Positions 4,758 through 21,113 of a DNA stretch of 64,000 nucleotides are shown here, piece by piece. The first letter of the stretch is position 1. Each line of letters opens with the position of its first letter. The notes under the pieces were generated by a model that was not told where the DNA came from, ran no database searches, and saw nothing but the letters and a program-made list of their open reading frames with translations. Position numbers and translations under genes: made by a program. Origin of the DNA: Haloarcula laminariae (GTDB lineage Archaea; Halobacteriota; Halobacteria; Halobacteriales; Haloarculaceae); NCBI RefSeq assembly GCF_025457605.1, contig NZ_JAMZFY010000001.1, positions 682,001 to 746,000 on the forward strand. The letters are read 5' to 3'.

Positions 4758-5240
4758 GTGAGTCTGACACAGCCGCTCGCTTCGGACCACCAGCTCGCCC
4801 GCCTGCTCCAGATAGGTATCGTCCTGGAGGAGGTCATCGAAGCGAGAGCCACCAAACACGTGGCAGCGACCCGCATCGACGACGACGCACAGCTTCACGC
4901 CCTGCTCGACGAGGCGTCGGCGGAGTCGGCCGAGCACCGTCGCCGCCTGGAGGCGCTCGTCGAGGAACTGGACGCGGAGACCGTCCCCTTCGAGGAGATA
5001 CAGACGCTCGTCGAGGCGCAGTACGAGGCCGACGAGGACTTCGACGGCGTACTGTACGACCAGCTCTGCAACGAGGAGACGGCCTACAAGTTCTACGACG
5101 ACCTCATCGGCGCCATCGAGGCGTCGGAGACCGACTTCAGTATCGACCGCGAGCAGCTACTCGACGTCCTGACGACTATCCGCGAGGAAGAGGCCGACGG
5201 CGTCGAGGACGTGACTGAACTCATGGAGGCACGACAATGA
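4758..5240 (+). CDS. Ferritin-like helical protein preceding SirR
   Basis: About 160 residues, almost all helical. Acidic and histidine residues are spaced as in ferritin-like four-helix bundles: EEVIEARATKHVAA, ESAEHRRRLEALVEEL, EAQYEADEDFDGVLYD, EETAYKFYDDLI. GTG at 4758 is preferred over GTG at 4737 because GGAGGTG lies five bases upstream. The stop overlaps the ATG of the DtxR-family gene, so the two are translated together. A role in binding or sensing Fe or Mn together with that regulator is likely but inferred. The di-metal ligands cannot be assigned with certainty by eye. Confidence 0.72.
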   Translation: MSLTQPLASDHQLARLLQIGIVLEEVIEARATKHVAATRIDDDAQLHALLDEASAESAEHRRRLEALVEELDAETVPFEEIQTLVEAQYEADEDFDGVLYDQLCNEETAYKFYDDLIGAIEASETDFSIDREQLLDVLTTIREEEADGVEDVTELMEARQ

Positions 5241-17047: not shown

Positions 17048-17527
17048 ATGCGCGTGACACCAGCCGTGGTGGCCGACGAGTACGAGTGGGTCCGCGGGCG
17101 GGCCGACGTGGCGGTCCCGCTGGTCAACGAGACGCGGGCCCACCTGGGCGAGCAGTTCGGCGCCGACGTGGCACGCATCGACGGGGCGGACTACCGCGAG
17201 GCCGTCGATGCCGTCTTCGCCGACGGGGATAGGGCGGTGAACGTGGCGGCCCTGGTCAGGCTCCTGCGGGACCTCGACGTCGAGGGCGATTATCCGGGCT
17301 TTGTGGTGGACGAGCTCCTGGGTCGTGAGCTGGCCGCGATGCTCGCCGGCGACCAGCCGTTGCGACTGCTCGCGGAGGCGACGTTCCACGTCGCGGACGT
17401 GCGAACGCACGGGGACCCCGGCGACGCCGCCGGCGCGGACGACCTCGACGCGGCGATAGCGGCGGGTATCCAGACCCGGCTGCCGGGGTGGCCCTGGACG
17501 GAGGGTGAGAGCCCGTTTTCCGTCTAG
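17048..17527 (+). CDS. Conserved haloarchaeal hypothetical protein (159 aa)
   Basis: A soluble, mostly helical acidic protein. Visible segments are DEYEWVRGRADVAVPLVNETR, AALVRLLRDLDVEGDYPGFVVDELLGRELA and LPGWPWTEGESPF at the end. I do not recognise the family; no catalytic motif or membrane segment is apparent. The ATG at 17048 is chosen because the upstream extension has atypical composition; TATTAAAG near 16987 may be the promoter. It overlaps the 3' end of the convergent lipoprotein gene by four bases. Confidence 0.72.
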   Translation: MRVTPAVVADEYEWVRGRADVAVPLVNETRAHLGEQFGADVARIDGADYREAVDAVFADGDRAVNVAALVRLLRDLDVEGDYPGFVVDELLGRELAAMLAGDQPLRLLAEATFHVADVRTHGDPGDAAGADDLDAAIAAGIQTRLPGWPWTEGESPFSV

Positions 17528-18570
17528 AACTCGATGGTCGGCGTCCCCAGGAACGCCGTCTCGTACCCCTCGTGGCGGGAGACCTGCGACGGGCCGACGG
17601 TCTCGACGGTGACGGAGGGGTCGCCGGTCGCCTCGACTACGGCGCCGTAGTGGTAGCCGATGTCGGGGTGGACCGCGGCCGAGAGGCTGTCGTCGTAGGC
17701 GGTCTCGCCGCCGATGTCGACCGCCCCGTCGATGCTCATCATCGGCAGCGGGACGCGGTTGTACGGCGTGCGGACCGAGACGGCCAGGTACGACTGCCCC
17801 GAGTCGAGGAACGGGGCCTCCGAGAGCCACGTCGCCGCGTACACCTCGTCGCTGCCCTTCCCGGTGCCCAGTAGCTCCCCGGGCAGGTCGTCGGGGGCGG
17901 GGACCTGCGAGGTAGGCATCATCTCCATCTTCATCAGGTCGAGCGCGGCGCGGCTACCCTGCTGGTCGGGGTATTCGGTAAAGGCGATGTCGTCCCGCGC
18001 CGAGCGGGAGAACTCGAAGTTGGTGGTCATCTCGCCGGCGTCCCCGAACCGGTCGGCGAACCCGCCCAGCCGGCGCTCGGTCATCCCGTCGACGCGGACG
18101 GTCATCTCGTAGACGCCCTCGCCGTCCAGCTGGTAGTTGTCGCCGTAGTGGAATCCCATGTTCTGTGAGACCATCGGCCAGGGCTGCTTGTCGGCGACCG
18201 TCTCGCCGTCCGAGCTGACCGTGATGGAGACGCCCGACTGAATCGGAAGCACCGTCATCGTGTCGGGGTCCCACACGGACGCCATCAGGTGGACGCTGTC
18301 GTCGTCCTGAATCGTGACTTGCTCTGCGGTCGTGCCGGTCACCGTCCAGAACCGGTGCGGGTAGGAGTAGGTCAGCCCGACCTTGTAGTCGCCGGCGTCG
18401 CCCACGCCTATCATCTTCATTCCCTCCTTGTGGGTGGGGTAGTACGTCGCGTCGGGCCGGTTCTCGACCAGCGGCGGCGACCGAGTCGACTGGTTCTCGA
18501 CGGAGCCACAGCCGGCGAGTATCGATGCCCCTGCCACCCCAGCGCTCGCGAGGAAACGACGGCGGTTCAT
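17524..18570 (-). CDS. Tat-exported lipoprotein, P19-like (probable Fe2+ binding)
   Basis: A 348-residue secreted lipoprotein: a twin-arginine signal (NRRRFLASAGVAGA) ends in the lipobox LAGC at residue ~21. Two beta-sandwich-like regions follow. The first holds MGFHYGDNYQLDGEGVYEMT, close to the HYGxN...G.Y segment of periplasmic P19/Tpd iron-transport proteins; the second repeats IGYHYGAVVEA. Methionines and histidines are frequent. The likely role is binding Fe or another metal at the cell surface. Its promoter shares a motif with the DyP-like gene at 19192-20460. The family assignment is by eye only. Confidence 0.68.
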   Translation of the reverse strand: MNRRRFLASAGVAGASILAGCGSVENQSTRSPPLVENRPDATYYPTHKEGMKMIGVGDAGDYKVGLTYSYPHRFWTVTGTTAEQVTIQDDDSVHLMASVWDPDTMTVLPIQSGVSITVSSDGETVADKQPWPMVSQNMGFHYGDNYQLDGEGVYEMTVRVDGMTERRLGGFADRFGDAGEMTTNFEFSRSARDDIAFTEYPDQQGSRAALDLMKMEMMPTSQVPAPDDLPGELLGTGKGSDEVYAATWLSEAPFLDSGQSYLAVSVRTPYNRVPLPMMSIDGAVDIGGETAYDDSLSAAVHPDIGYHYGAVVEATGDPSVTVETVGPSQVSRHEGYETAFLGTPTIEF

Positions 18571-18571
18571 A

Positions 18572-18621
18572 CCCGGCCTAGCGGTCGTTACTCAAAGACG
18601 GTTCTGGTACGGCTGGCGAAC
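18572..18621 (-). promoter_or_regulatory. Promoter of the P19-like gene with shared motif
   Basis: On the plus strand, CCCGGCCTAG (18572-18581) abuts the start codon and CGGTTCTGGTACGGCTGG (from 18599) lies 29 bases upstream, at the usual TATA/BRE distance. The same two blocks, in the same order and spacing, precede the DyP-like gene (20464-20513). There is no ordinary TATA box, so this may be an operator-type promoter. Confidence 0.6.
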
Positions 18622-18781
18622 AGTCCGGTCGGCTGTGCGGACCAGTCGTTTCGGCCAGTCGGCCCTCTCTCGTCAGTGCTGTGGCCCCGATGACGGGGGA
18701 CCCCGAAACAAAACAATAAGCGATTGGATATATCATCTGCAACCGATTTATTTATTGGCAATCAGGGGGGTGAGCGTAACA

Positions 18782-19039
18782 ATGGACCACACGAGACACC
18801 CAGACACGCCGATGACTGTCGCAGTCGCTGAAGCGGTGAGTTCCTTCGAGAACTGTGACCCGACCGCCCTGCCGCCGCTACACGACACCCTAGACGCCGA
18901 CGCGCTGGACACGCTTTTCGAGACCGGCGGCGACCGCAGTTGCACCGTCTTCTTTGCCTTCAGTGACTCGTACGTCACCATCGAGAACGGCGAGCGGATT
19001 GTCGTTGAAGCGGCCGAAACCAGTCAGGTGTCATCGTAA
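18782..19039 (+). CDS. HalOD1 output domain protein
   Basis: An 85-residue stand-alone HalOD1 domain (VAEAVSSFENCDPTALPPLHDTLDADALDTLF, then TVFFAFSDSYVTIENGERIVV). Such domains occur at the ends of haloarchaeal signalling proteins and as orphans, with no defined biochemical function. The start is the ATG at 18782, preceded by GGGGGGTGAG and a strong TATA-like TTTATTTATT at 18747-18756. It lies between the P19-like and DyP-like genes but on the opposite strand. Confidence 0.8.
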   Translation: MDHTRHPDTPMTVAVAEAVSSFENCDPTALPPLHDTLDADALDTLFETGGDRSCTVFFAFSDSYVTIENGERIVVEAAETSQVSS

Positions 19040-19191
19040 CCGGTCCGGCAGCGCTCCCCTCCGCCGCTACAGTAGCGATGTACCTACAGATTGGCCCGGA
19101 AGGCGACGGGACAGCACACGGCGAGACCGGGCCGACCGACGGCGTGACCGAGACGCGGACCGCCACGCCGTCCGCGATGCAGAGGGCCGCC

Positions 19192-20460
19192 TCAGGCGGG
19201 TTCGGCCGGTGGCAGCGCCCGCAGGTCGCGAGGGGGTAGCAGGTAGTTCCCGCGGCGCTCGACACGCATGTACTGGAGAATGCCGTTGTTGACCCGTTGG
19301 CCGACCGAGGACCCGTCGGCCACGTCGGTACCGTTCATCATCGACTTCGTGGCGACGAAGTCGGCGATAGAGCGCTGTAGGGAGAGGAAGTGGACCCCCG
19401 CCTGACCGCCGTTGGTCGAGTCGAAGTCCCGCCGGAGGATGACCGGCGTGTCGCTGTCGTCCCGGGCCCGGGCGGCCTTCTGCGCGTGGCCGGCGACGCC
19501 CTCGGTCCGGCTGTTCTCGACCACGTCCTCGGCACACTCGCCGACGCCGCTGTCGGTACCGAGGTTCTCGCCGACGCCGTCGACTTTCCCCTCGTCGGCG
19601 TGGGCGGGACAGAACATCTTCGAGACGCGCTGGTCCCGGGAGTCCTGCTCGTACCACTGCTGGAGCTGTAGCCGGATGTGCGAGAGGTGCTGGGTCGACC
19701 CGCCGGCGAAGGGGCCCGACTCGATTGTGACGCTGTCCTCGCTGGCCTGGTTCTCCTTGAACCCGGACTTGAAGCCCATGAACAGCGGGGCGTCCTCGGG
19801 CACCGGCTCCGAATCGGGGATGCCGTCGGCGTCCTGGTTCTCGGCGGGGAGACCGGCCCCCACGAAGCCGGTGCGCCGGTCGGCCTGGGTGAAGACGCCG
19901 TCGAAGGAGGCCGCCATCTCGGTGTCGTTGACTGTGGACTGTTCGCCCTTCAGCGCCTCTTCGGCCGCGAGGACGACCTGTTCGTAGTCGCTGGCCAGAT
20001 GCAACAGAGCGTCGGGCGTGTCGAACTCGGGGTCCTCGAAGGGGGCCAGCGCCGCCGGCTCGGGGAGGTCGACGCCGGCCGGGCCGCTCCCGAACCGTTC
20101 GAAGTACGCCGGGCTGTAGCCGAGCGTGAACTGGAGCCCCTCGGCCTGCCAGGCGTAGGCCCGCTCCAGGGAGCGGAGGGCGTCTGCGATCTGCGTCCGG
20201 TCGGCGTCGGTCGGTGTCCCGTCGCGCTCGTAATCGAGCAGGAGCAGGACGTGGTGACGCCCCAGCCGCTCGTTGCCCGCGTCGTCCGTCGGCAACCCCT
20301 GGTTCCAGGCGTGCTGTCGAGCCGGAAGCTCGGCGGGGTCGGTCCCCTCGGGGACGTCGGGCGACCCGAACCGGTCGAGACAGGCGGAAAGCGCCGACGC
20401 CCCGCCGATGGCGACGGCGCTTTTGGCGAAGTCGCGTCTGGAGATACCACGGTCACTCAT
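19192..20460 (-). CDS. Tat-exported DyP-like heme peroxidase with altered GxxDG motif
   Basis: A 422-residue protein with a twin-arginine signal (SRRDFAKSAVAIGGASALSAC) and lipobox-like Cys near 27. The two-domain ferredoxin-like DyP fold is indicated by FTLGYSPAYFERFG, GGSTQHLSHIRLQLQQWYE, and AGHAQKAAR followed by VILRRDFDSTNGG and FLSLQRSIADF. The proximal His and distal Arg regions are thus recognisable, but the GxxDG acid motif reads GFKSG (~residue 227), Asp to Ser. Activity may be changed, for example toward heme or iron handling as in EfeB. It shares a promoter motif with the P19-like gene. Confidence 0.78.
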   Translation of the reverse strand: MSDRGISRRDFAKSAVAIGGASALSACLDRFGSPDVPEGTDPAELPARQHAWNQGLPTDDAGNERLGRHHVLLLLDYERDGTPTDADRTQIADALRSLERAYAWQAEGLQFTLGYSPAYFERFGSGPAGVDLPEPAALAPFEDPEFDTPDALLHLASDYEQVVLAAEEALKGEQSTVNDTEMAASFDGVFTQADRRTGFVGAGLPAENQDADGIPDSEPVPEDAPLFMGFKSGFKENQASEDSVTIESGPFAGGSTQHLSHIRLQLQQWYEQDSRDQRVSKMFCPAHADEGKVDGVGENLGTDSGVGECAEDVVENSRTEGVAGHAQKAARARDDSDTPVILRRDFDSTNGGQAGVHFLSLQRSIADFVATKSMMNGTDVADGSSVGQRVNNGILQYMRVERRGNYLLPPRDLRALPPAEPA

Positions 20461-20463
20461 CGG

Positions 20464-20513
20464 CCCGGCCTAGGGACTCACCGCATTACTCGGTTCTGGT
20501 ACGCTGGACGAAC
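20464..20513 (-). promoter_or_regulatory. Promoter of the DyP-like gene with shared motif
   Basis: On the plus strand, CCCGGCCTAG (20464-20473) and CGGTTCTGGTACGCTGG (from 20491) lie 3 and 30 bases upstream of the ATG at 20460, as at the P19-like gene. Read toward the gene, the block contains CCAG-CGTA-CCAG, a short direct repeat. Confidence 0.6.
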
Positions 20514-20600: not shown

Positions 20601-21113
20601 TCAGTCCCGATTCGGGGGCTCCAGCAAGCTATCGACCAGCCGCTCGAATCGGTCGGTCAGTCGCTCGGCGAGGCCCGGTTCCACCGTCCGGAGCAGCGCC
20701 ACCGTTTCGTCGGGCCGGGACAGCGAGAGCGTGACCCGGTTCCCCTCCCGGTCCTTCCGGACGATGTCGCCCGCCACCAGCCCGTCGAGGTGGTGTTCCA
20801 GCGTGGACCGGGCGATACCGACCCGGTCGGCGACGGCGTCGGGTCGCGCCCCGTTGGAATCGTATAGCGCCACGACGACGTCGCGGGCGGTCTCCCGCCG
20901 GAGCATCGCCAGCGCCGTCCGCTCCCACCCGTCGTACCCCGGCGGGTAGTAGTGGGTCCGGCCGTTGACCCGCTCCTCCGTGACGTCCTCCAGGCGGGCG
21001 AGGTGGTACTGGACTTGCCCCGTCGCCAGCTCCAGCCCGCGCGTCAGCGCCCGGAAGTGGACGCCCGGCTTCCGCTCTATGTACCGCCTAATCCGCGCCC
21101 GCGTCTCGCTCAC
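20601..21113 (-). CDS. Double winged-helix transcription regulator
   Basis: A 170-residue cytoplasmic regulator with two helix-turn-helix units: IERKPGVHFRALTRGLELATGQVQYHLARLED (~8-42) and GARPDAVADRVGIARSTLEHHLDGL (~88-115), each followed by a wing. The C-terminal ~45 residues are amphipathic helix (LTDRFERLVDSLLEPP). GTG at 21113 is chosen because GGGAGGTG precedes it and it overlaps the stop of the upstream membrane gene (GTGA). Co-translation suggests the membrane protein senses or controls the regulator. The long frame upstream is not real coding. Confidence 0.82.
   Translation of the reverse strand: MSETRARIRRYIERKPGVHFRALTRGLELATGQVQYHLARLEDVTEERVNGRTHYYPPGYDGWERTALAMLRRETARDVVVALYDSNGARPDAVADRVGIARSTLEHHLDGLVAGDIVRKDREGNRVTLSLSRPDETVALLRTVEPGLAERLTDRFERLVDSLLEPPNRD

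Follow-up and report, generated by a model that had tools for sequence, protein, structure and literature searches.

Two neighboring genes of Haloarcula laminariae, one for a P19/FtrA/FetP-like lipoprotein similar to a protein that binds copper or iron and one for a DyP-like protein with a heme-peroxidase fold, were found to share a promoter signature that recurs before their relatives in other haloarchaea. Both lie in the window analyzed here, a stretch of 64,000 nucleotides (nt) that corresponds to bases 682001 to 746000 of contig 1 of this haloarchaeal genome (3.69 Mb); positions below are those of the window. Judged from sequence comparison, shared and specific regulation of the two genes is very likely. 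We also consider it probable, with less assurance, that they belong to a haloarchaeal metal regulon with a stereotyped promoter, control by a winged-helix protein, and a function that leans toward copper. No description of the motif, or of the DUF7405 domain, was found in the limited literature searched. The features to which the text refers are as follows.

17524 to 18570, minus strand: P19/FtrA/FetP-like twin-arginine translocation (Tat) lipoprotein; Pfam PF10634 plus DUF7350
18568 to 18570, minus strand: start codon of the P19-like gene
18578 to 18581, minus strand: CTAG promoter element of the P19-like gene, −11 to −8 relative to the ATG
18594 to 18620, minus strand: promoter signature of the P19-like gene, TTCGCCAGCCGTACCAGAACCGTCTTT
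19192 to 20460, minus strand: DyP-like exported heme-peroxidase-fold protein; Pfam DUF7405 plus Dyp_perox_C; Tat signal; GFKSG replaces GFKDG
20458 to 20460, minus strand: start codon of the DyP-like gene
20470 to 20473, minus strand: CTAG promoter element of the DyP-like gene, −13 to −10 relative to the ATG
20488 to 20512, minus strand: promoter signature of the DyP-like gene, TTCGTCCAGCGTACCAGAACCGAGT, a variant without the TTT part
20601 to 21113, minus strand: HVO_0163-type tandem winged-helix protein, candidate regulator; PF24266 plus an ArsR-like helix-turn-helix
21110 to 21445, minus strand: DUF7471-type small membrane protein, candidate partner; overlaps the regulator gene and clusters by blast with Pfam DUF7471 proteins

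Shared promoter signature

The first-pass annotation of this DNA had proposed a common motif at matching spacing upstream of both genes, and we found this to hold, not only here but far beyond the window. The 12-mer CGGTTCTGGTAC stands at 18599 to 18610 in the P19-like promoter and at 20491 to 20502 in the DyP-like promoter; in coding orientation, the core ACCAGAA starts at −38 and −40 from the respective ATG, and GTACCAGAAC together with CTAG is common to both promoters at nearly equal distances from the ATG. Our genome-wide statements are based on pattern searches and retrieved stretches. By these, the exact 12-mer is found at four places in the genome, namely, the two window promoters and two sites within unrelated coding sequence. 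GTACCAGAACSGTCTTT is kept at the same place in the P19 promoter of all 13 same-genus orthologs found (13/13); at the corresponding position, DyP promoters have ACCAGAA, with ACCACAA in its stead in many Haloarcula. The full signature reads TTCG[A]-n5-8-ACCAGAA-n3-6-TTT, and CTAG near −12 is often present. Two details of the original motif did not survive this comparison intact. The GCTGG-type sequence assigned to it is not its conserved part; TTCG, 5 to 8 nt upstream of ACCAGAA, is. CCCGGCCTAG, described as lying by the start codon, is indeed present in both genes (18572 to 18581 and 20464 to 20473), but only its CTA(G) part near −12 is widespread, and it was ruled out as the full motif.

Non-redundant promoters from haloarchaeal relatives were compared with 433 non-redundant control upstream regions taken from other genes of the same loci. 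ACCAGAA occurred between −44 and −34 in 13 of 32 DyP promoters and 15 of 28 P19 promoters and in none of the controls (0/433). With a matrix trained on DyP promoters, 17 of 28 P19 promoters scored higher than the 99% control level; with one trained on P19 promoters, 17 of 32 DyP promoters did so (p = 7e-8 and 4e-12 for the cross-trained matrices). CTA(G) near −12 was seen in 15/32 DyP, 6/28 P19, and 30/433 control regions. The P19 copies without a motif mostly stand second in DyP-P19 operons, with a start that overlaps the upstream DyP gene, and so share the DyP promoter. The control regions, the genome copy count, and a scan with the reversed pattern (see below) together rule out chance. It is also very improbable that the likeness of the promoters merely reflects duplication of an ancestral promoter along with neighboring genes, with no common control; DyP and P19 genes do adjoin in most genomes, but the ACCAGAA element has been kept while its flanks diverged, and it stands at the same distance before unrelated, unlinked genes.

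Two exported proteins

Export of both products, as first proposed, was supported; the P19-like protein is a Tat lipoprotein and the DyP-like protein has a Tat signal. The predicted P19-like fold also found support in structure prediction, Foldseek, and Pfam. The protein matches PF10634 at 26.6 bits (gathering threshold, 21), over positions 73 to 129 of the 150-position profile only, and also matches DUF7350. Of the top fifteen PDB entries that Foldseek returned for its AlphaFold2 model (predicted local distance difference test [pLDDT], 85.2), almost all were P19/FtrA/FetP/HftA proteins (probability, 1.00; target template-modeling score, ~0.6), including Brucella FtrA, E. coli FetP, Rubrivivax FtrA, and Treponema HftA. 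When PDB sequences were searched with a profile, FtrA was found at 9e-7, with WPM...HYGDN of the window protein aligned with MPM...HYGDN. Residues M133 and H141, invariant in 30 P19-like sequences, align with this motif of FtrA/FetP and are the only two ligands that were mapped. The protein thus resembles the P19 components of FtrABCD and FetMP in fold, exported location, and Met/His motif; unlike these, it is a Tat lipoprotein, carries a DUF7350 domain in addition, is paired with a DyP-type protein, and comes from a genome without an FTR1 permease.

As for the DyP-like peroxidase, the fold was confirmed and the proximal His and distal Arg are kept, but the Asp of the GxxDG motif is replaced. 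The model (pLDDT, 83) matches DyP peroxidases in Foldseek with an E value of 4e-15 and a probability of 1.00. H325 and R343/R344 are invariant; in a MAFFT alignment, H325 falls on H329 of EfeB and the distal Arg falls on the Arg of EfeB LRRG. GxxDG has become GFxSG, with the distal Asp replaced by Ser232 in 32 of 32 relatives, and both MAFFT and hhalign align GFKDG of E. coli EfeB with GFKSG of the window protein. Compared with EfeB of the EfeUOB system, then, the DyP fold, Tat export, proximal His, and distal Arg are shared, whereas the distal Asp is a Ser and the genome lacks EfeU/FTR1 and EfeO/M75. Matches of the DyP query to BurrH were rejected as spurious, the signal region having been aligned to repeats. 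The closest named relatives retrieved with the DyP protein are mostly Haloarcula species, and 86 of 128 DyP-type genes adjoin a P19 gene. Some copies are damaged: in one locus (L192, 5111 to 11865), DyP-like copies are disrupted by apparent transposon-type insertions, with the promoter signature and the regulator retained, and in one Haloarcula (G103, contig 8, 133808 to 135159) the gene is split over two frames, probably as a pseudogene or through sequencing error.

Proposed wider regulon and its probable metal

An unbiased scan of 146 family genomes with the pattern TTCGNN{4,7}ACCAGAANNNN{0,3}TTT returned at least 122 distinct sites, against ~6 for the reversed pattern. Most of the listed sites stand before P19 or DyP genes, and few genes per genome carry one. 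Among the other genes preceded by the signature, Pfam confirmed NosL lipoproteins (two loci, plus a third from the genus scan), a CopC-CopD fusion (one locus), and the heme A synthase CtaA (two loci, COX15-CtaA). Further sites precede an exported family with AHFP after its signal and no assigned function (four loci), DUF7471 (two loci), DUF7475 (one locus), and a gene pair for a zinc-finger and a polytopic membrane protein. In most of these, the start codon lies 38 to 45 nt from ACCAGAA; the membrane pair and DUF7471 have it at 53 to 56 nt, and the DUF7475 gene, at 23 nt, is the exception; stereotyped spacing of this kind is what a single promoter type would give. A P-type ATPase in one locus was rejected as a direct target, given that a broken c11-like start follows the site at 53 nt and the ATPase begins ~160 nt away.

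The same genome holds two more clusters. The second, on contig 3, contains genes for a multicopper oxidase, a ZIP transporter, a cupredoxin, the regulator pair, a DyP-like protein, two P19-like proteins, the membrane pair, a heavy-metal ATPase, and a cation-efflux protein. The third, a P19 cluster, is near 97 kb on contig 1. In these clusters, the DyP, P19, and membrane-pair promoters have the core, either exact or with one base changed. In the contig 3 metal island (L079, 15 to 35 kb), the membrane pair (12634 to 14395 of L079, minus strand) comprises a 503-amino-acid polytopic membrane protein, which has no Pfam, NCBIfam, or PDB match, and an 88-amino-acid zinc-finger partner under the same promoter signature. 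The island also has, ~13 kb off, a gene for transcription factor B (TFB). Near-identical islands in several genera (L107 to L111) suggest that the island travels.

NosL, CopC-CopD, and CtaA are all copper or heme-copper-oxidase genes, and the context of the contig 3 cluster, though mixed-metal, leans toward copper. The NosL and CopC/CopD delivery proteins have the promoter signature in common with the window genes in some relatives; they are not homologous to the window proteins. FTR1 (PF03239) had no match in the H. laminariae genome, as opposed to four control genomes that did match, and EfeO/M75 was not found there, so the known parts do not add up to an iron importer of either the Ftr or the Efe type. 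Because copper genes carry the signature in a few relatives and the iron permeases are missing, copper, or copper with iron, is a better reading than iron alone, and our sequence data slightly favor copper as the signal. The module had first been read as an iron or heme module under one regulator; its shared promoter and export stand, while the copper genes and the absence of FTR1 and EfeO weaken the iron part.

Candidate regulator

For haloarchaea, what is known of gene regulation by metals comes mainly from iron regulators of the DtxR type. The first-pass annotation had named the DtxR-type gene at 5237 as a possible regulator; it encodes a genuine DtxR-family protein, yet nothing was found to link it to the pair, and the HVO_0163-type gene appears to be the better candidate. 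The latter protein combines an HVO_0163-type N-terminal domain with a second, ArsR-like helix-turn-helix, and its match to the ArsR/SmtB metalloregulators was below threshold (42.6 bits; cutoff, 55). Of 110 HVO_0163-type orthologs, 54 lie within 3.5 kb of a DyP or P19 gene, and the regulator gene with its DUF7471 partner is next to DyP or P19 in 49 genomes. The site was present in 59 of 83 genomes with a regulator ortholog and in 6 of 33 without one (p ~3e-7), co-occurrence counts that include four genomes added by hand from the scan tally and are not phylogeny corrected. Outside the genus, among genomes with DyP or P19, the corresponding figures were 43/64 and 6/29 (p = 4e-5). The DyP-P19 pairs of two genera (g2 and g7), and most of those of a third (g4), have neither ortholog nor site. 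Linked as it is by neighborhood and phylogenetic profile, the HVO_0163-type protein is probably the regulator of the set, and the presence of two winged helices in a single protein would be in keeping with an asymmetric site. Autoregulation is not supported by most loci; ACCAGAA is lacking close upstream of the DUF7471 or helix-turn-helix genes in most loci examined, though DUF7471 carries the signature in a few genomes.

Against this background, an iron or heme regulon under a DtxR-family repressor seems unlikely. P19 and EfeB-type proteins do serve Fe2+ uptake in bacteria (PMC11966278, PMC9174327), and besides the gene at 5237 there is another DtxR-like gene in the plasmid metal island (family judged by eye). 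However, the motif genes include those for NosL, CopC-CopD, and CtaA, the genome is without FTR1 and EfeO/M75, and the DtxR gene of the window is ~12 kb from the DyP/P19 pair. Moreover, in alignments judged by eye, the conserved TTCG-n5-8-ACCAGAA site has no obvious long palindrome of the kind expected of a DtxR box. It is more doubtful still that ACCAGAA is a B recognition element (BRE)-type core element for a specialized TFB paralog, in which case an alternative-TFB regulon would operate without a classical regulator. The element is placed just upstream of a TATA-like TTTT, and, as in the specialized TFB regulons, the motif occupies the BRE position or the bases directly 5′ of it; haloarchaeal genomes encode several TFBs, and it has been proposed that these act at different classes of promoter (PMC2121645); and TFB genes are near P19 genes in a few (four) loci. 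In a search across the family, however, the closest TFB subfamily was not systematically beside DyP or P19; it rides the same mobile islands, often 10 to 13 kb off, which explains the adjacency. Unlike the specialized TFB regulons, the signature is limited to a few targets per genome, and the best neighbor is a winged-helix protein rather than a TFB.

Gene order at the locus

On the minus strand, the order is DUF7471, HVO_0163-type winged helix, DyP-like, and P19-like, with a small HalOD1 gene on the opposite strand (18782 to 19039, plus strand) between the last two. This gene, which has a DdfA-like match below the cutoff, is at the same spot in two close relatives and is absent from most others.

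Proposed model

We propose that both genes belong to a regulon whose promoter is roughly TTCGA-n5-GTACCAGAAnCnnTTTT-n12-CTAG-n9-ATG. With the ATG ~25 nt after the TATA-like TTTT, transcripts would be leaderless or nearly so. ACCAGAA, just upstream of and partly overlapping the BRE position, is predicted to be bound by a sequence-specific regulator, for which the neighboring HVO_0163-type protein is the leading candidate; the membrane protein DUF7471 may tether or control it. The products would form an extracytoplasmic module that captures copper, perhaps along with ferrous iron, carries out its redox handling, and supplies cuproenzymes; within it, the P19-like lipoprotein would bind metal at its Met/His site, with the DyP-like protein as its heme-dependent redox partner.

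Several observations weigh against this model. P19 proteins elsewhere take part in iron uptake (PMC11966278), NosL is absent from the H. laminariae genome, and the promoter evidence for NosL, CopC-CopD, and CtaA comes from one to three genomes each. About 18 among the 122 matches listed have no recognizable regulon gene downstream, seven genomes have a regulator ortholog but neither DyP nor P19, and the test of motif against regulator profile is confounded by shared ancestry.

In its most specific form, the proposal is tentative: a conserved copper-supply regulon in which the HVO_0163-type protein is coupled to DUF7471, and, at the cell surface, the Asp-less DyP-like protein and the P19-like protein form a redox pair for copper or copper/iron with no FTR1 permease. 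If true, it would provide the first functions for DUF7405, DUF7471, and one PF24266 clade. Being sharp, the promoter signature allows a separate regulon to be predicted in many species; it also points to a candidate for the regulator and gives a common context to three families of unknown function, DUF7405, DUF7350, and DUF7471.

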